Source: Pirellulales bacterium (GTDB lineage Bacteria > Planctomycetota > Planctomycetia > Pirellulales > Lacipirellulaceae). Taken from it: a DNA stretch of 64,000 nucleotides. Both the position numbers and the translations under genes were made by a program. The notes under the pieces are model-generated. The model saw nothing but the letters and a program-made list of their open reading frames with translations, did not search any database and was not told the DNA's origin. The stretch spans positions 897,985-961,984 of the forward strand of contig JAHBXQ010000001.1 of assembly GCA_019636345.1 (NCBI GenBank), in the 5' to 3' direction. Shown here piece after piece: positions 29,525 to 54,194 of the stretch. Within the stretch, counting starts at the first letter, position 1; each line of letters begins with the position of its first letter.

Positions 29525-29761
29525 CAGCCGCGTCAGCAACCGCGGCTCGATGCGCCCCCGAAAGCGGATCGTTCCGTCGATCTCGACGACCGGCACGCAC
29601 TCGTGGAACTGGTCGCGAAGCACGGGGTCGGCGTCGACGTCGACCAGTTCCGGCTCAAGACCCTGCGCCTGCAGAATCGCCAGCGCCTCGTCGCACAGAT
29701 GGCAACCGTCGCGCGTATAGAGGACGACGTGTCGGGAATGGCTCACGGCGGTTCTCCTCAT
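29507..29761 (-). CDS. Glutaredoxin-like thiol-disulfide protein
   Basis: 84 residues, the normal size of a small glutaredoxin/NrdH-like thioredoxin fold. The active site CHLC follows VVLYTRDG, and the cis-proline loop CVPVVEIDG and the following strand are present. It has the shape of DUF836 (GlxR-like) proteins, which reduce disulfides in the cytoplasm. Convergent overlap of 18 bases with the upstream membrane-protein gene. Confidence 0.88.
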   Translation of the reverse strand: MRRTAVSHSRHVVLYTRDGCHLCDEALAILQAQGLEPELVDVDADPVLRDQFHECVPVVEIDGTIRFRGRIEPRLLTRLLRGRG

Positions 29762-30115
29762 CTTCTGCAGTCATGGAGCGCGCGGATGGCGTGGCCCGCA
29801 CGGCGCGGGCCTTCACGACAAGCTTGATTGAGTTCACGGAGGCGTGCGAAGCGTCTTGTCGGGCGGCGACCGGTCCCCGGCGCCAGCGTCCCCAAATTAC
29901 CGCTTAACCCCTCTGTAGAGGGGGTTGGGCCGCTTTGCCAAACCCTGCCCCGGCAAGGGCTTAGGGCATCTGTTTGCCGGCCCTTTTCCCCGCAGCCTAG
30001 GATGGATACGGCGGCCGAGGGACCCCGCGAACGCCCTCTCCCAGCTTGCCTCCGCTGCCGCCGAATTGCCCCGTCGTGTCGTAGCAAGTCTTTAGTCACG
30101 CGAAAGTTGCGCATC
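29762..30115. other. Intergenic region with a hairpin
   Basis: No gene recognised. A perfect 6-bp hairpin CCCCTC-tgta-GAGGGG lies at 29908-29923, followed by a second imperfect hairpin built on TTGCC/GGCAA up to about 29960. Both are upstream of the metalloprotease gene and could be 5'-UTR structures. Confidence 0.35.
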
Positions 30116-30817
30116 ATGTCCAAGCATCACATGACTCAGAACTCGGGACTTCGCCAGCCGAAGAAGACGACCCGCGCGAGCACGGCGGGACGCATCGCAC
30201 GACAAGCGCGACGAACGCTGTTGGGAACGCGAAATCTTCATGAACCGTTCTCTCCTCCTGAGGATTGGCACGAACCCAAAGAGAGCGGCGGAGCCTATCG
30301 CATCGTGGTGCGCGATCCGGGCGCCGGCTACCGTCATGTCGTCACGCCGGCCGAGGTCGCGGCCCGACTCGCCGAAGCGCCTCAAGCGTTCCTGCGCGGG
30401 CTCGAGGTGGTGCAGCTCAGCCGCATGACGCGCAAGAAGCAAAGCTTCCCCTGCTACGGCATGCAGTGGGGCGCCACGCTGTATTTGTACCCCATCGAGG
30501 AATCGCTGGAGGAGCATTTCTCCGCCCCGCCCCGCCCCGAGGTCTACACCGAGTCCCGCATGTACGGCGGCCGCTGGGACGAACCCTCGCCGGGATGGTG
30601 GCGCTTGCGGTGGACCGAGGCGACGATTCGCGACTTCTATCTCAACAACATCCTGATCCACGAACTGGGCCACCTGGTCGACGATCGCAACTCGAACTAC
30701 CTCGACCGCGAGCGGTATGCCGAGTGGTTCGCGATTGAGTTTGGCTACCGTGCCAGTGGCGGCGGCGACAGCCGCCGCAAACCGTCCCGGCGGCAGCGCC
30801 GGCACCATGTGAAGTAG
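30116..30817 (+). CDS. Putative cytoplasmic zinc metalloprotease (HELGH)
   Basis: 233 residues from the ATG at 30116. A basic N-terminus (about 1-40) is followed by a globular domain with a zinc-protease motif ILIHELGHLVDD (His 182, Glu 183, His 186) and candidate third ligands Glu 203 and Glu 208 in YAEWFAIEFGY, the pattern of a gluzincin. No signal peptide is seen. The C-terminal 20 residues are basic. The family is not one I can name; it looks planctomycete-restricted. Followed by a terminator-like hairpin, so probably transcribed alone. Confidence 0.7.
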   Translation: MSKHHMTQNSGLRQPKKTTRASTAGRIARQARRTLLGTRNLHEPFSPPEDWHEPKESGGAYRIVVRDPGAGYRHVVTPAEVAARLAEAPQAFLRGLEVVQLSRMTRKKQSFPCYGMQWGATLYLYPIEESLEEHFSAPPRPEVYTESRMYGGRWDEPSPGWWRLRWTEATIRDFYLNNILIHELGHLVDDRNSNYLDRERYAEWFAIEFGYRASGGGDSRRKPSRRQRRHHVK

Positions 30818-30855
30818 CCGACGGCTTCGCCCGTTGCCGATTCGAGTCGTTCGTG

Positions 30856-30886
30856 GCGGCCCTGGGGTCGGGCCGCTTCACTTTTC
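30856..30886 (+). terminator. Rho-independent-like terminator
   Basis: A perfect 7-bp stem (GCGGCCC/GGGCCGC, loop TGGGGTC, 30856-30876) is followed by the T-rich TTCACTTTT. It lies 38 bases after the stop of the HELGH protease gene. Confidence 0.5.
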
Positions 30887-31024
30887 GCATGGGCGAGGGG
30901 GCCATGGGCAGCCCCCAGCCGCTCTCACGACTTGCCTAACGGCGCATCACGTCGTGGGCGATCCTTAGGCATCGACGCCGGTTGCCGCACGCCCCGGGGC
31001 TGAATTCGCGGCAGCGGAGTCGTT

Positions 31025-31052
31025 GTAAGTGGTTGTGCGGACAACCTCTTAC
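31025..31052 (+). promoter_or_regulatory. Inverted repeat, likely enhancer site for a sigma-54 activator
   Basis: GTAAGTGGTTGT, spacer GCGG, ACAACCTCTTAC: two 12-bp arms matching at 11 of 12 positions. Its centre is about 80 bases before the start point predicted from the sigma-54 promoter at 31093, where enhancer-binding proteins usually bind. The sequence is not the classical enterobacterial NtrC box. Confidence 0.6.
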
Positions 31053-31092
31053 GATTCTTTTCGAGGTTCCCTCGGCCGCTTGCGGGTCTTGC

Positions 31093-31108
31093 TGGCACGC
31101 TGGTTGCG
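31093..31108 (+). promoter_or_regulatory. Sigma-54 (-24/-12) promoter of amt
   Basis: TGGCACG-CTGG-TTGC matches the sigma-54 consensus TGGCACG-N4-TTGC at all specified bases except the last W position (G here). The invariant GG (31094-31095) and GC (31106-31107) are at the required spacing. Predicted start is near 31119, giving a leader of about 167 bases before amt. Confidence 0.8.
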
Positions 31109-31285
31109 TCGCGAGATCGTCGACTAGTCCGTCGGCAGGGTCAGGTTGCAGGGATCGCAACTTGGCCGGCCACCCTACCGTAAGCGGCAGTTCCCTGTCG
31201 CTCCGAGGCCAGAAAGGCGGAATTCTTTCTAGCGCTCCGGCGGCCTCGGCTGAAATCCTTCTGACAACGCACTGAGGACTCTCGA

Positions 31286-32692
31286 ATGACTACCGAATGG
31301 TCACATCGGGGATGGTTCGCGCTGGTGCTGGCGGTCGTCGCGACCCTGGCTGCCGCGGCGCTCCCCACGACTTGCTACGCCCAGGACGAGGGGGCCGAGA
31401 CCGCAGCAACTGCGGACGAGGCCGAAGAAGAAGCGGCCGAGGATCTCGGCGTCGGCTACGCGCTGGACAACATCATGTTGTTCATTTGCGCTGCACTCGT
31501 GTTCTTGATGCAGGCAGGCTTCGCGATGGTCGAGGCGGGCTTCAACTCGCAGAAGAACGCGGTCAACATCCTGTTCAAGAACTCGATGGACATCTGCGTC
31601 GGCGTATTGTTGTTCTTCGCCTTCGGGTTCGGGCTCATGTACCCGGGATGCTACGGAGTGGAGGGCTATGAAAGCAAGTTCATCTCGTTCGGCGGCTTCG
31701 GCCTGGAAGGCTATGAGTCGGCTGCCGACCGCACCTTCAGCCCCGGAACCGACTGGTTTTTTCAGGCGATGTTTGCGGCGACCGCCGCGACGATCGTCTC
31801 CGGCGCCGTCGCCGGTCGCATGAAAGTCGGCGCGTATCTGATTTACAGCGCTGTTCTTACCGGTTTGGTCTATCCGATCAGCGGCATGTGGAAGTGGGGC
31901 GGCGGCTGGCTTGCTGAGAAGGGCTTCCAAGATTTCGCCGGGTCGGCCGTGGTGCATGGCGTCGGCGGTTTCGCCGGATTGGCCGGCGCCATCCTGCTTG
32001 GCCCGCGGATTGGCCGCTATGTGAACGGCAAGAGCGTTCCCATGCCAGGCCACAGCTTGCCGCTGGCCTGCTTGGGGGTCTTCATCCTGTGGTTCGGCTG
32101 GTACGGGTTCAACCCAGGCAGCATGTTGGCTTTCCAGGGGACTGGAGATATCGACGGCACAATGCACTGTGCCGTCACCACGACCCTGGCCGCCGGCGCC
32201 GGCGGGTTGGTCGCCACACTGTTGAGCTGGATTATGTTCGGAAAGCCTGACCTGTCGATGGGCCTCAACGGCATCCTCGGCGGGCTGGTCGGCATCACCG
32301 CCTGCTGCGACTGCATGTCGACTCTCCAGGCTGCCGCGATCATTGGACCGGTTTCCGCTGTGTTGGTCATCGCCGGGGTGCTGCTGCTGGACAAGCTGCA
32401 GATCGACGACCCGGTCGGGGCCTTCCCGGTGCACGGCCTGTGCGGAATCTGGGGCTGCATGGCGATTGGGATTCTGCCCAACGATTATCTGAAGAACGGC
32501 GATACGTCGTTCGTCACCCAAGCGATCGGCACGTTTTCGATCATCGGGTGGTCGTTCGTCACGATGTTGGCCCTGTTCGCCGTGATGAAGGCGATGGGGA
32601 TCTTGCGGGTCGGCGCCCATGAGGAGCAGGTCGGGCTCGATATCAGCGAGCACGGCATGCAAGCCTACGGCGGCGCCCCGTCGATGGGTTGA
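31286..32692 (+). CDS. amt: Ammonium transporter Amt
   Basis: 468 residues. A cleavable signal peptide (to about residue 33, CYAQ) and an acidic stretch precede 11 membrane helices of the Amt/MEP family, which moves ammonium/ammonia across the inner membrane as a trimer. The twin pore histidines are present (VVHGVGGFAGLAGA and FPVHGLCGIWG), as are family blocks AGFAMVEAGFNSQKN and GWYGFNPGS. The C-terminal tail (GAHEEQVGLDISEHGMQAY) carries the conserved regulatory motif that contacts PII. The PII gene lies 745 bases downstream on the same strand. Transcription is expected to be nitrogen-controlled through the sigma-54 promoter upstream. Confidence 0.96.
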   Translation: MTTEWSHRGWFALVLAVVATLAAAALPTTCYAQDEGAETAATADEAEEEAAEDLGVGYALDNIMLFICAALVFLMQAGFAMVEAGFNSQKNAVNILFKNSMDICVGVLLFFAFGFGLMYPGCYGVEGYESKFISFGGFGLEGYESAADRTFSPGTDWFFQAMFAATAATIVSGAVAGRMKVGAYLIYSAVLTGLVYPISGMWKWGGGWLAEKGFQDFAGSAVVHGVGGFAGLAGAILLGPRIGRYVNGKSVPMPGHSLPLACLGVFILWFGWYGFNPGSMLAFQGTGDIDGTMHCAVTTTLAAGAGGLVATLLSWIMFGKPDLSMGLNGILGGLVGITACCDCMSTLQAAAIIGPVSAVLVIAGVLLLDKLQIDDPVGAFPVHGLCGIWGCMAIGILPNDYLKNGDTSFVTQAIGTFSIIGWSFVTMLALFAVMKAMGILRVGAHEEQVGLDISEHGMQAYGGAPSMG

Positions 32693-32708
32693 TGAGTGCG
32701 TAGCGAAC

Positions 32709-32739
32709 GGGGCGGCGGCCTGCTGACGGTCGCCGCCCC
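32709..32739 (+). terminator. Stem-loop just after amt
   Basis: GGGGCGGCG (32709-32717) pairs with CGCCGCCCC (32731-32739), a perfect 9-bp stem starting 16 bases after the amt stop codon. There is no clear T tract. Confidence 0.45.
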
Positions 32740-32875
32740 GAGCTTCGCCGCGGCCGATCTTCGACAGGGACAACCTGCCGGGGACCGGTCAAAGTGGATG
32801 CGACTGAGCGATTCACCAGGAGTCTTTCGAGATTTGAGGCAGCGACTCTTGCCTGGGTCGAACGATGTCCCACAG

Positions 32876-32913
32876 GGCTCGGCGGCGTTCCGCCGCCTAC
32901 ACGCCGCCGAGCC
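32876..32913 (+). other. Strong hairpin
   Basis: GGCTCGGCGGCG (32876-32887) and CGCCGCCGAGCC (32902-32913) form a perfect 12-bp stem with a 14-base loop. Function unknown. Confidence 0.5.
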
Positions 32914-33152
32914 GGGACGTCGGTTTTCATAAGCACGAACAGCGAGGCGTTCGCGGACTCCGCAGCGAGTCCGCCGGCGGTCGGGAACAGACGCTCAACA
33001 AACCACCCTTCCAGCCCAAGCCCCGGGCGCCATCCGCGCCGCCTCTCGGCGCCCGGGGCCCGGCTGGAACAAGGGCCGCGGCTCTCGCGGCGCCAGTCCG
33101 CTCGGCTCGCTCTCCTGCGACCCGGCCTGCGCGACCGCCTCTCGTCCAGAAG

Positions 33153-33209
33153 GATGCCCCAATGGCTTGGGCGTGCCTCTCCGCCTAGGTGCGCTCAAGC
33201 CGGGGCATC
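33153..33209 (+). terminator. Long hairpin followed by T-rich sequence
   Basis: GATGCCCC (33153-33160) pairs with GGGGCATC (33202-33209), and the stem continues across a bulge with GGCTTG/CAAGCC. TTATTGTT follows directly. It could terminate a transcript coming from amt or be the 3' end of a small RNA. Confidence 0.45.
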
Positions 33210-33437
33210 TTATTGTTGAGAGGGAGATGTCGGGAGTCGGCAAGGACCAGCCGGTTGCGTCGCTATTCAATCCCCCGTCGTCGCGACTCTCCTGAGTTTG
33301 CCGGCGGCGTCATCAGGGTTCTCTCCCTGCGTTGATTCGCCTACGATGGTGGTTTCGGTACGGCAACTCCGTCTTCGCCGCGGGCGGGGACGTCGCGGTT
33401 CGTCCTTGATTTCCGCCAGACGCGACTTTTCGGTCCC

Positions 33438-33785
33438 ATGAAGCTCATCATCGCGATTATTCAGCCCAACAAGCTTGAGGACGTGAAGGCGGCCCTCCAG
33501 GAGGTCGAGGTCGTCCGGCTGACGATTATGGACGTCCAGGGCTTCGGCCGACAGAAGGGCCAAACCGAGACCTACCGCGGTCGCGAGATGAACGTCAACC
33601 TGCTCCGCAAGGTGCAATTGCAGATCGCCGTGAACGAGGCGTTCGTCGAGCCGACGATCAGCGCGATCATCAAAGGGGGCCGCACGGGCGAGGCAGGCCA
33701 GATCGGCGACGGCAAAATCTTCGTGCTGCCGCTGGAAGATTGCATTCGCATCCGTACCGGCGAACGGGGCGCCGAGGCGATTTGA
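33438..33785 (+). CDS. glnK: PII nitrogen regulatory protein (GlnB/GlnK family)
   Basis: 115 residues, normal PII length. PII trimers sense ATP/ADP and 2-oxoglutarate and block Amt when nitrogen is ample. The family blocks are clear: [14 protein letters not shown] (T-loop base), [13 protein letters not shown] and IRTGE (nucleotide binding). Gln 39 (2-oxoglutarate site) is kept. The T-loop Tyr 51, the uridylylation site of enterobacterial PII, is Met here. A three-residue insertion lies before IGDGK. No Shine-Dalgarno precedes the ATG. Next to amt, so GlnK-type function is likely; GlnB cannot be excluded. Confidence 0.95.
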
Positions 33786-33893
33786 CCGCGTCCTGGCGGC
33801 TGATCGCCGTGAACGGGAACTCGCAAAGGCTCGAAGCCGCAAGGGGATTCGCGCCTTTGCGCGAGCTCGGCTTCCAAGGCCCGCCCGTTCGAC

Positions 33894-35174
33894 TCAGCGG
33901 CTGGCGCCATGCACGGACCGCAGTTCGTCGGCCAGGATGGCGATCCCTTCGCGAACCGTCCGTTCCGACTGCGAGAACGTGAGCCGAATGCACTGGCGGC
34001 GATGGGCCCAGTCGTCCCCCGGCGGCAGACCGAAGAAAAAGTGCTCCCCGGGCACCACCAGCACGCCGCGGCGTTTGAGCCGCTCGTACAGGTCGCGCGA
34101 CCCGATCGGCAGTTCGGGGAACCAGAGCCACAGGAAGAACGCCCCCTCGCTGCGATGGACCCGCCAGGGGAAGGCGTCGCCGAAGTGCTCGGCGACGAGC
34201 TGCTGGGCCGCTTGGGACTTGGCTTCGTAAAAGGGCCGAATGTGGTTGCGGCAGAGCTCGATGAGCTGCCCCTCGCGGAGGAGCGGTTCGACGAGCGTCT
34301 GCCCCAGGTTGCCGTTGGCCAGCCCCACGATTCCCGTCATCGAGCGGATGCGGCGCACGAGCGATTCGTCGGCCAGCACGATGCCGGTGCGCGTGCCGGG
34401 GAGCCCCAATTTCGAGAGGCTGAAGGTCATCACCATCCCCGAGCGCCAGGTCGGGCGAATCGGCTCGAACACGGCCCCGGGAAACGGCTCGCCGTAGGCG
34501 TTGTCGACCAACAGCGGGATCCCGCGCGCTTGGGCTAGGTCGGCTAGCCTGGCGATCTCGTCGTCGGTGAGGACGTTGCCGGTCGGGTTAGTGGGCCGAC
34601 TGACGCAAATGGCGCCGACGTCGTCGCCGATTGTCAGGGCGTCGAAGTCGATGCGGTACTTGAACTGCCGGTCCTCCAGCAGTTCGACCCGCGGCCGGAA
34701 GCTGCGAAACAAATCAGGCGTCAGTCCCTGGTCGGCGTAACCGATGTACTCGGGGACGATCGGCAGCAGGATGCGCCGACGGGTCCTGTCGGCCATCTCG
34801 CCGGCCAGAAGCGTGAACAGGAAGAAGAACGCCGTCTGCCCTCCGCAGGTGACCGCGACATTCTCCGGCCCGACGGGCCACCCGAACTCGGTCCGCAGGC
34901 ATTCGGCCACGGCGTCGAGAAACCGCGGGTTGCCGGCCGGGCCGTCGTAGTTTGCGAGCATCCGATCGCAGAGCGGTTCGTCGGCGACGATCTCGCGCAA
35001 GCGGCGGCGCCAGACCTCTTGCATTTCGGGGATGTGGGCCGGGTTGCCGCCGCCCAACATCCGCATCGAGGCGCCGTCTCCCTCGGCGAGCGCGGCGCCG
35101 AGGTCGGCCATCAGCTCGACGATGCCGCTGGGACCGGACAGGGCCTCGCCGATTTGGCTGATGCAGTGCTCCAT
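33894..35174 (-). CDS. avtA: Valine-pyruvate-type aminotransferase (PLP, fold type I)
   Basis: 426 residues. A pyridoxal-phosphate aminotransferase resembling AvtA, which converts 2-oxoisovalerate and alanine to valine and pyruvate. Seen: ANYDGPAGNPRFLDAVAE, VTCGGQTAFFFLFT (cofactor phosphate), SRPTNPTGNVL, VDNAYGEPFPG (pyridine-contacting Asp and Tyr) and the Schiff-base lysine in FSLSKLGLPGTRTG. Length matches AvtA. It runs convergent to PII and in the same direction as the ATP synthase genes, 167 bases after its upstream neighbour atpC; likely a separate unit. Substrate specificity is inferred by overall resemblance. Confidence 0.87.
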   Translation of the reverse strand: MEHCISQIGEALSGPSGIVELMADLGAALAEGDGASMRMLGGGNPAHIPEMQEVWRRRLREIVADEPLCDRMLANYDGPAGNPRFLDAVAECLRTEFGWPVGPENVAVTCGGQTAFFFLFTLLAGEMADRTRRRILLPIVPEYIGYADQGLTPDLFRSFRPRVELLEDRQFKYRIDFDALTIGDDVGAICVSRPTNPTGNVLTDDEIARLADLAQARGIPLLVDNAYGEPFPGAVFEPIRPTWRSGMVMTFSLSKLGLPGTRTGIVLADESLVRRIRSMTGIVGLANGNLGQTLVEPLLREGQLIELCRNHIRPFYEAKSQAAQQLVAEHFGDAFPWRVHRSEGAFFLWLWFPELPIGSRDLYERLKRRGVLVVPGEHFFFGLPPGDDWAHRRQCIRLTFSQSERTVREGIAILADELRSVHGASR

Positions 35175-50656: not shown

Positions 50657-52537
50657 CTACTCCTCGTCGCCGGTCGGCATGCCGAGTTGGCGCATCTTGC
50701 GATACAGGTTCGAGCGGTGCAGGCCGAGGCGCTGTGCGGCCGTGGTCATGTTGCCGCGTTGGGCTTCGATCGTTTGGCGGATGAACCGGTCCTGAAACTG
50801 CCGGGTCGCCTCGGCGAGGGTCGCTTCGAGATCGACTGCGGGGCCCGACTCCTGCAAACCCGGGTCGAGGAACGCGAGGTCGTCCAGTTCGACGGCCTCT
50901 CCGCTCGACAGATACGCCAGCCGCTCGCACACGTTGCGCAGCTCCCGCACATTCCCCGGCCAAGCGTGCTGAGCCAAGCGCCGCCGAGCCGCGGCCGAGA
51001 AGCTCGGCGTGCGGCGACCCATGTGAACGCAGAACGACCGCAGGAAGAACTCGGCCAGCAGCAGCACGTCCTCTCCCCGCTCGCGAAGTGCGGGAAGTTC
51101 GAGGCTGACCACGTTGAGCCGGAAGAAGAGGTCCTCGCGGAACCGCTTCTGGCGGACCATCGCCCCGAGATCCTGGTTGGTGGCGGCCAGGATGCGGACC
51201 TCGGTATGGATCGGCCGCGAGCCGCCGACCCGCACGACGATCTTGTCCTCAAGCACCCGCAGCAGCTTCGCTTGGCCTCCCGGGCTCATGTCGCCGATCT
51301 CGTCGAGAAACAGCGTCCCCCCCGAGGCGAGTTCGAATTTGCCGGGGCGCGATTCGCGGGCGTCGGTGAACGCCCCTTTCTCGTGGCCGAACAGTTCGCT
51401 CTCGAGGAGCGTCTCGGCGATTGCCGCGCAGTTGACGGCGATGAACGGCTGGTCGCGGCGACGACTGAGGTAATGAATCGAGCGCGCGACGACCTCTTTG
51501 CCGGTGCCGTTCTCACCGAGGATGAGGATCGCCAAGTCCGTGTCGGCAATCCGCCGCACCGTGGAGCGGACCGCTTCGATCGCCGGGCTGTGTCCGATGA
51601 GTTGCACCCCCTCGGCCGCTTGCTCGACGAGCTTCTGGTGTTTGGTGAGCAGCTCCTCGAAGTGTTGCGTGTTTTCCAGAGCCACTGCGGCGTAGGCGGC
51701 CAGCTCGACGAGGCCGCGCTCGTCCTCGTCGCTGAAGTGCCCCTCGCGTTTGTTGAGGACCTCGAAGGCGCCCAGGCAGCGATCGGCGGGGGTAAGCAGG
51801 GGGACGCAAATGAGATTGCGCGTGGTGTAGCCGGTCGACTTGTCGACGGTCCGGTCGATCTCGTTCTCGCCCAGTCCGCCGCCGACGCGGCGCGGCTGAA
51901 GCGTTTGCACGACTTGGCCGGCGACGCCCGTGTTGTCGGGGATTCGCAGCTCGTCGTCCTTGACCCCCAGGGCCGGGCGGGCGATGAGTTGCCGATTCGT
52001 CTTGTCCCACAGGAAGATGCTCGCCCGCTCGGCGCCCAAGAGATCGGCGGCCGTTTCGGCCATCGCCTTGAGGAGCGACTCAGTGCACTCAGCCTGGCCC
52101 CAGCGACGGGTGATGTCGAGCAACCGTTCCAACCGCCGGATGCGACGTTGCCGCTGGACCCGGCTGTGGACCGTCTGAAGGGCCGGTTGGAGGACGTCGG
52201 CCAACTCTGCGAAGACGGCCGGAGTCGTTCCGGCGGCGGTCAGGGCGTACCCCTCTCCCAGCGGGGCGGCGAGCCAGTCGCCAACGGCGGACTGCCGATT
52301 GAGATCGATCGCCTCGGCGGCGGCTTCGGTGGGGAGCAGCTTGGCCGGGGCTCCGCTGGCTGCGACGGCCTCCCACTGCGGGGGATTGGTCCGGACGACC
52401 CCGACGACCTTGGCCCCGGCCGCGCCCCGCATCTCGGGGAGGAGCCGGTTGAGGAACGGGAGCAAATCGTCGCTCTCTGCCGTCGATTCGAGGGCGATTT
52501 TCGCAAGTTCAGCGAGTTGGAGAGTCTTTTCGGGCAT
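50657..52537 (-). CDS. Sigma-54 enhancer-binding regulator with GAF domain
   Basis: 626 residues. A GAF sensor domain (about 150-290) precedes an AAA+ domain with Walker A GENGTGKE (341-348), L1 loop GAFTDA (388-393; GAFTGA is the usual form) and Walker B TLFLDEIGDM, then a Fis-type HTH (NMTTAAQRLGLHRSNLYRKM). It opens sigma-54 promoters when its GAF domain binds a signal. No receiver domain, so it is probably ligand-controlled. ATG 52537 is preferred over an upstream open frame. A -10-like TATAAT lies 57 bases before it on the minus strand. Confidence 0.93.
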   Translation of the reverse strand: MPEKTLQLAELAKIALESTAESDDLLPFLNRLLPEMRGAAGAKVVGVVRTNPPQWEAVAASGAPAKLLPTEAAAEAIDLNRQSAVGDWLAAPLGEGYALTAAGTTPAVFAELADVLQPALQTVHSRVQRQRRIRRLERLLDITRRWGQAECTESLLKAMAETAADLLGAERASIFLWDKTNRQLIARPALGVKDDELRIPDNTGVAGQVVQTLQPRRVGGGLGENEIDRTVDKSTGYTTRNLICVPLLTPADRCLGAFEVLNKREGHFSDEDERGLVELAAYAAVALENTQHFEELLTKHQKLVEQAAEGVQLIGHSPAIEAVRSTVRRIADTDLAILILGENGTGKEVVARSIHYLSRRRDQPFIAVNCAAIAETLLESELFGHEKGAFTDARESRPGKFELASGGTLFLDEIGDMSPGGQAKLLRVLEDKIVVRVGGSRPIHTEVRILAATNQDLGAMVRQKRFREDLFFRLNVVSLELPALRERGEDVLLLAEFFLRSFCVHMGRRTPSFSAAARRRLAQHAWPGNVRELRNVCERLAYLSSGEAVELDDLAFLDPGLQESGPAVDLEATLAEATRQFQDRFIRQTIEAQRGNMTTAAQRLGLHRSNLYRKMRQLGMPTGDEE

Positions 52538-53857: not shown

Positions 53858-54194
53858 GGGGCGAGCGATAGCGGCGGCGCCGCCGCTGGCGCCGCCAGTC
53901 TCGGGACTCGTTTCTTGTCCCGATCGAAAAACCGGGGTAGGTCGTTTCGTGACAACCTTGGTAAATTCTGCAAACCTTGCGGGCGGCAGGAGGTCGTCGC
54001 GGCGAGGGACGGCGGGCGTTTTTCTGGCGGTGCGAACCGCGTCGAAATGCGCTGCGTAGGATTTGGCGGTCGCGACCGCCGTCCTCGGCACGCCGGTTGC
54101 TTGAGTTGACTTGCGAGTCTGGCGTCGCGCGACGCCAGCGGCGGTACGCCGCCAACGGACAAGGATTCGTCCGCTAACCTACACAGGATCGAGC
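53858..54194. other. Intergenic region with a cluster of perfect palindromes
   Basis: No gene. Perfect palindromes: AGCGGCGGCGCCGCCGCT (53870-53887, 13 bases after the fabI stop, probably a transcript end), GGCGGTCGCGACCGCC (54065-54080) and CTGGCGTCGC/GCGACGCCAG (54119-54138), the last followed by a GGCGG-tacg-CCGCC hairpin. Such density is unusual even at this GC content. Confidence 0.6.

Follow-up and report, generated by a model that had tools for sequence, protein, structure and literature searches.

The amt locus and its predicted sigma-54 promoter

The window analysed here is a stretch of 64,000 nucleotides (G000:C1:897985-961984) from the 5.18-Mb genome of a member of the family Lacipirellulaceae (Pirellulales). 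It carries amt, encoding an ammonium transporter of 468 amino acids (31286-32692, + strand; PF00909, E 1.1e-117; TIGR00836 above its cut-off), and 3′ of it a P-II nitrogen regulatory protein gene of the glnK/glnB type (33438-33785, + strand; PF00543, E 2.4e-28). Upstream of amt lie a 39-bp element, a palindrome, a sigma-54-type -24/-12 element and a leader. The gene 5′ of amt (30116-30817, + strand) contains a HELGH motif and looks metallopeptidase-like by eye, with no Pfam match. Between amt and the P-II gene, a stretch present in one copy within the window (32838-32925; CGACTCTTGCCTGGGTCG...TGTCCCACAGGGC...) has a close counterpart in the P-II leaders of two genomes from genus g2 (L095 and L096).

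A sequence-only reading of the window had described a near-perfect -24/-12 element, TGGCACG-CTGG-TTGC, at 31093-31107, and it is indeed present. The element TGGCACGCTGGTTGC contains GG and GC dinucleotides 10 bp apart in a TGGCAC-N5-TTGC context; the following base is a G, giving one mismatch to the pattern TGGCACRNNNNTTGCW. Regions upstream of amt were collected from 35 loci (L002-L036), including this window (L002) and a genome of the same genus (G001, locus L003). The sigma-54 pattern was found with at most one mismatch in 34 of the 35 regions (no mismatch in 21, one in 13, two in the last), compared with 0.4% of shuffled regions. Single matches carry little weight: sites with at most one mismatch to a near-identical pattern were as frequent across the genome as in a reversed control (69 and 69), and within the window eight sites with at most two mismatches were found where 9.2 were expected. 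A whole-genome pattern scan was dropped as a means of finding targets because of these equal counts, and the amt promoter is taken as real because it is conserved among orthologues. The own genome also contains 16 Sigma54_activat matches (13 of them strong), implying that sigma-54 is present. We take 31093-31107 to be the sigma-54 promoter of amt (TGGCACGCTGGTTGCG at 31093-31108, + strand, when the following base is included). From the -12 GC, transcription is predicted to start at 31119, leaving a 5′ untranslated leader of ~167 nt (31119-31285, + strand) before the amt ATG at 31286. Elsewhere in the window, a sigma-54-like sequence with one mismatch (CGGCACGCCGGTTGCT, 54086-54101, + strand) has no palindrome in the combined model described below (8.2 bits, positions 56-77).

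A palindromic site upstream of the promoter

The putative upstream activator site at 31025-31052 reads GTAAGTGGTTGT-GCGG-ACAACCTCTTAC. What had been described as a 12+12-bp inverted repeat is a repeat, with 11 of the 12 pairs matching and a mismatch at position 6. Its centre (31038.5) lies about 80 bp before the predicted start, as had been proposed, and ~247 bp before the amt ATG. The earlier observation that the palindrome differs from the enterobacterial NtrC box also held on inspection (GTAAGTGGTTGT-N4-ACAACCTCTTAC against TGCACC-N5-GGTGCA), and by this inspection the palindrome upstream of amt is not an NtrC-type site. Allowing three mismatches, the palindrome pattern matched nowhere else in the 5.18-Mb genome (both strands being covered, since the pattern is palindromic), and a reversed control gave no match.

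When the regions are lined up on the promoter, many have a related palindrome at a similar position. Sites chosen visually in these very sequences served as the seed for a palindromic motif model, which was run on 39 regions: the 35 amt-upstream regions and the loci L092, L095, L096 and L097. A first model of 28 bp was replaced by one of 27 bp, which converged on the site GTAAatcctTttaataaAaggatTTAC (14.2 bits; approximately GTAArtnnyTT-N5-AArnnayTTAC), of which the window carries a local 28-bp version. Scores above 9 bits were obtained in 31 of the 39 regions, and the 25 best scores summed to 423, compared with 213 on average and 238 at most in 60 shuffled sets given the same seed. The regions at or below 9 bits were L003, L006, L013, L022, L023, L031, L032 and the window itself. 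The window copy, which differs in its inner letters and has an additional base at its centre, scores 5.4 bits in the ungapped 27-bp model. A sequence-only model of the site plus the promoter (R1, built from 29 sequences) gives the window region 25.6 bits, but this region is among the training sequences. The window palindrome is thus one of the more diverged copies of the site, although its own arms match at 11 of 12 positions.

Conservation of the palindrome in close relatives had been named as one of the points on which its relevance turned, and the outcome was divided: in the only same-genus genome, G001, promoter and 39-bp element are both retained and there is no recognisable palindrome (1.4 bits), yet 31 of the 39 regions score above 9 bits. 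The amt palindrome of another family member, G018, is degenerate. Among 14 more distant amt genes, a sigma-54 element with at most two mismatches was found in 10 and a site above 9 bits in 4.

The distance between the start of the site and the start of the promoter falls into discrete classes: 54-58 bp in 21 regions, 66-68 bp in 8, and 79 and 89 bp in one region each, with no region at 59-65 or 69-78 bp. When each of the four distance classes is counted once, a 10.8-bp period fits better than uniform placement (p = 0.003); a figure of 0 in 20,000 from a larger sample overstates this fit, since the sequences are related. Four more distant amt regions with both features have distances of 55, 55, 68 and 68 bp, and sites before other genes of the own genome lie 45, 54, 65 and 77 bp from their promoters, near the same series. 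Comparison between species therefore suggests that the site moves in helical-turn steps of ~11 bp. Over so short a distance, an activator would need to occupy a fixed face of the helix to form a short-range loop to the sigma-54 polymerase, which would explain these steps.

The site accompanies sigma-54 elements before genes of many kinds

The R1 model was run over 43 genomes of the family with stricter filters. At E ≤ 1e-3 it gave 36 matches: 21 amt or P-II promoters that had been used for training, and 15 at other places. We then inspected 40 further matches, a selection from the best to about E 0.03 that included two second-type amt genes. Four kinds of gene recurred at independent places behind the site and a sigma-54 element in these relatives: csrA (L139 and L147, confirmed by Pfam; L172, by eye), dnaK (L151 and L175), glutamine synthetase (L150 and L161) and a sigma-70-type factor (L160 and L168), the last three confirmed by Pfam throughout. 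Genes for an Fe-S protein (L140), an Hsp20 protein (L174) and a flagellar rod protein (L166) were each confirmed once by Pfam, and a small protein with the motif LPWADPxIAxLVxxLQ was recognised by eye at four loci (L141, L153, L173 and L176). Long open frames run across several of the 40 matches, and single matches may be due to chance.

In the own genome, the site and a sigma-54 element were found before csrA (L264), dnaK (L265) and the small-protein gene (L258), with weak R1 E-values (0.65, 6.8 and 0.031, respectively); the csrA and dnaK matches count only because the orthologous genes recur in relatives. Three other candidates were set aside. Two glutamine synthetase genes of the own genome (C3:738-740 kb) have only two-mismatch sigma-54 matches and no R1 match at E ≤ 1. 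A zero-mismatch sigma-54 site before the gene of an NtrC-like enhancer-binding protein (EBP; L038; C12:46100) was matched by R1 over positions 40-78 only, with no palindrome, and by inspection is taken to fall inside the coding sequence of the gene before it. Finally, a TROVE/RtcR label for the gene at L146 was dropped, its first 108 residues having no Pfam match.

The sequence-only reading had placed the site in a nitrogen context and proposed a search upstream of nitrogen genes. The site does precede amt and, in relatives, glutamine synthetase, but not as a nitrogen-specific feature. Targets of an NtrC regulon are mainly nitrogen genes, and here csrA, dnaK, Hsp20, sigma-70-type factor, flagellar and Fe-S genes are among the matches. 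Because it accompanies sigma-54 elements before csrA, dnaK, the sigma-70-type factor and others, the site is specific neither to amt nor to nitrogen genes. In agreement with these assignments, sigma-54 promoters have been predicted in the literature for the csrA gene of Pirellula sp. 1 and for chaperones of the DnaK type in Planctomycetia (PMC12316311).

A short EBP lacking a sensor domain is the candidate activator

The 13 strong EBPs of the own genome were compared with the EBPs of eight other genomes. One group stood out: a site of at least 14 bits was present upstream of the EBP's own gene in 6 of 8 members of the L048 group, compared with 6 of 87 members of the eleven other EBP groups from the nine genomes. 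The own-genome member (G000:C4:128236-129213) has 326 amino acids, a Sigma54_activat domain (PF00158, E 4.1e-65), an HTH_8 domain (E 6.8e-10) and the GAFTGA motif. Within these 326 residues there is no Pfam match to a receiver, GAF, PAS or FHA domain, such domains being usual and not obligatory in EBPs. Twenty-seven NCBIfam models match the protein, and none of the best 25 of these 27 reaches its cut-off; among solved structures, ZraR (1ojl) is nearest in sequence.

An orthologue was found in 39 of the 43 family genomes. One of 30 EBP loci (L393), having only 346 bp of upstream sequence, was left out; in the remaining 29 loci a site of at least 14 bits lies 322-451 bp before the EBP gene in 22, compared with 0 of 580 shuffles. 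Also left out were a fragment (G010:C120), a match of 57% (G064:C566), a partial match (G045:C267) and four of the last-listed matches (143-161 bits), and seven EBP loci yielded no protein by the motif filter (L334, L361, L368 and L371-L374). Of nine further EBP loci, five have a site within 500 bp upstream, which brings the family copies with the site 322-493 bp before the EBP gene to 27 of 38. Around the site at the short EBP gene, no sigma-54 element was detected even with three mismatches allowed. This accords with an EBP acting on its own gene and not with activation by a second one; the short EBP therefore probably regulates itself.

Outside the family the association is sparse. In a class-wide sample of 158 genomes, orthologues were found in six other genomes of the order, the remaining matches being 42-50% identical and probably other EBPs. 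A site of at least 14 bits was present upstream of 1 of these 6 orthologues and of 1 of the 18 other EBP loci of that search. Moreover, no orthologue was found in two genomes that have the site: G038, with a strong amt site (L027, 19.7), and G030, with matches before dnaK and the small-protein gene. Given these two genomes and the sparse sites outside the family, we lean only somewhat towards the short EBP as the candidate activator of the site, and hold it to be more probable that the palindrome is an enhancer shared by these promoters. The suggestion of the earlier reading that the palindrome belongs to a different planctomycete activator appears to have been sound, with the amendment that the site seems to serve a wider sigma-54 regulon.

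Another EBP could instead read the site, for example the GAF-type EBP of the L045 group, the universal sensor-less EBP L043, or several EBPs sharing it, and the site before the short EBP gene would then be there because that other EBP controls it. The two genomes with sites and no EBP of the L048 type found are in keeping with this explanation. Genes of the GAF-type L045 group adjoin the site in all three genomes concerned, with a sigma-54 element facing away in two of them, but reciprocal hits of this group were obtained in only 2 of the 8 other genomes, while the site is family-wide. L039, L040, L043, L044 and L047 have reciprocal best hits in all eight other genomes; four of these (L039, L040, L043 and L047), however, have no site of at least 14 bits upstream of their own genes, the sole L040-group match (15.0) falling inside the frame, and L044 has one in 3 of 9 cases. 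Since no sigma-54 element accompanies the site at the short EBP gene, there would be nothing there for another EBP to activate. We regard an activator other than the short EBP as rather unlikely.

Several other arrangements of sites and EBP genes were noted. In L048, L348, L340 and L357, a conserved string around CGCTAGTGA stands between the site and the candidate EBP gene, ~70-170 nt before the frame, and is perhaps a leader element. A site with a sigma-54 element adjoins an EBP gene of another kind in G018 (C1:3066514-3066585 and 3067255-3067755) and lies just downstream of the candidate EBP gene in G021 (C2:40598-42031), with extra sites in that position also in G013 and L400. The window itself holds a second EBP gene (51101-51601, - strand; L041 group) with a GAF-like region by eye, AAA+ and HTH; no site of at least 11 bits was found upstream of any of the seven members of this group.

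A 39-bp element and a conserved leader at amt

Two further features of the amt upstream region, a 39-bp element and a conserved leader, are absent from the sequence-only reading. The 39-bp element (TGCCTAACGGCGCATCACGTCGTGGGCGATCCTTAGGCA, 30933-30971, + strand) is an imperfect palindrome, TGCCTArCnGCGCrTCA-N5-TGAnTA-N6-AGGCA, whose start in relatives keeps helical register with the promoter, most copies beginning at -159/-160, -147 to -150 or -138. Allowing three mismatches, 15 of the order's 246 genomes contain the pattern, none of them more than once, and the reversed pattern was found in none of the 246. Twelve of the 15 copies precede amt (11 known loci, and L097 identified by Pfam), two precede a P-II gene, and the last (L092) stands before a gene with the visual appearance of amt and no Pfam match in its first 150 residues. 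The element is thus a mark of amt and P-II promoters and, like the leader, is more amt-specific than the palindrome. At the two P-II loci, from genus g2 (L095 in G027 and L096 in G015), the element lies ~760 nt before the P-II gene together with a palindrome and a sigma-54 site, and no close amt was found in these genomes; the arrangement is what a loss of amt from its place between the module and the P-II gene would leave.

Because the 39-bp element is also in helical register and nearly amt-specific, it could be the true enhancer, with the palindrome bound by a non-EBP repressor or an architectural protein common at sigma-54 promoters. Two turns separate the outer arms of the palindrome, a wider spacing than in NtrC- or NifA-type sites, which is compatible with such a protein. 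At csrA, dnaK and the other genes, however, the site occurs with no match to the 39-bp pattern, making it the only known candidate there for the obligatory enhancer, and its link to the EBP gene is strong within the family. A non-EBP protein at the palindrome therefore seems improbable.

The leader is conserved at 31180-31264 (+ strand), where alignment and folding predict two hairpins, the second carrying GGCGGAA, followed by ATCCTTCTGA. The motif CCTTCTG or an overlapping variant was found in 25 of the 35 amt leaders, and 22 of these 25 were aligned (alignment A2), in which CCTTCTG is constant by selection, the leaders having been chosen for it. The GG-GG of GGYGG, located in the second predicted hairpin, is invariant or nearly so in the 22 leaders. 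An enclosing helix of at least seven pairs around GGYGG can be drawn in 16 of 21 leaders, compared with 9.65 expected from shuffles, which is suggestive only. In the leaders of L003-L036 and the window, GGYGGA in the second hairpin is followed by an unpaired TCCTTCTGA before the start codon; at a guess, GGYGGA could pair with TCCTTCT in a possible pseudoknot that would bring the start-site region under control. A search of 29700-34000 against Rfam with E up to 1 returned no family. The amt leader is a candidate regulatory RNA and is probably structured.

A model for sigma-54 regulation of amt

Sequence comparison shows the promoter, the palindrome with its phasing, its recurrence before other genes and its presence before the EBP gene. 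Taken together, these comparisons make it probable, in our judgement, that amt is transcribed by sigma-54, that the palindrome is an EBP site belonging to a broader regulon, and that the short sensor-less EBP is the likeliest activator and probably regulates itself. EBPs remodel the closed complex by ATP hydrolysis. At amt, sigma-54 RNA polymerase would transcribe from 31093-31107, and a dimeric or higher-order EBP, most likely the short protein, would bind 31025-31052, ~80 bp upstream, and remodel the closed complex in this way. The same site would serve amt, csrA, dnaK, glutamine synthetase and others, and amt would owe its nitrogen specificity to another input, perhaps the 39-bp element and the leader RNA. 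A chance origin of these features, with the palindrome as an incidental hairpin ending the upstream gene before the T-rich GATTCTTTT and the -24/-12 match as fortuitous as the many sigma-54-like sites genome-wide, is scarcely credible, since the promoter is conserved in 34 of 35 regions, the phased palindrome in 31 of 39 and the pair before unrelated genes, while the arms are poorly conserved as pairs and the conserved letters are GTAA...TTAC.

More tentatively, and short of what we would call probable, a single sensor-less, self-regulating EBP could be a sigma-54 activator with a global role in the Lacipirellulaceae and their near relatives. By reading a phased 27-bp palindrome it would place the uptake of ammonium under the same control as csrA, chaperones and sigma-70-type factors, with amt adding a nitrogen input through the 39-bp element and the structured leader RNA. 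If this is true, nitrogen uptake, carbon-storage regulation and chaperones belong to one regulon whose level is set by such an EBP, a departure from the one-signal, one-EBP picture of Proteobacteria. Nitrogen uptake thus seems wired into a wider circuit, and the regulon becomes testable now that its site is defined, a rule of phasing is in hand and an activator can be proposed.

Comparison with known sigma-54 systems

Gene regulation in planctomycetes has been little studied. A sigma-54 regulon of Planctomycetes was reportedly predicted by Studholme and Dixon in 2004; in the literature searched apart from that work, which may itself contain one, no planctomycete sigma-54 activator site was named. 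The published predictions likewise include promoters of csrA and DnaK-type chaperones; the passages of PMC12316311 describe no activator site, and the terms palindrom, UAS and upstream activat are absent from its main text. Going by those passages, planctomycete sigma-54 promoters had been predicted before with no activator site known.

The amt locus resembles the NtrC-activated enterobacterial promoters (glnA, glnK-amtB) in having a sigma-54 element before amt, an upstream palindrome and a nearby P-II gene. It differs from them in the sequence of the site, its length (27-28 bp) and the set of genes, and in a candidate activator with no receiver domain. In its domain structure, AAA+ plus HTH_8 with no N-terminal regulatory domain, the candidate is like PspF and other sensor-less EBPs, and PspF is autoregulated, as the candidate probably is. 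The candidate nevertheless falls below the PspF model cut-off (229.9 compared with 443.55 bits), the site and the regulon differ, and there were no psp genes among the targets found here.

A further likeness is to the PrsR/PEP-CTERM box of Proteobacteria, a 17-nt motif that ends in TTTACA ~63 nt before the sigma-54 element and, according to passages of Haft et al. (2006; PMC1569441), is a predicted EBP site common to many scattered genes, as the palindrome appears to be. PrsR is, however, a response regulator with a kinase partner, and its 17-nt motif contrasts with the 27-28 bp of the site described here; against the PrsR model, the candidate EBP scores 256 bits compared with a cut-off of 502.6.
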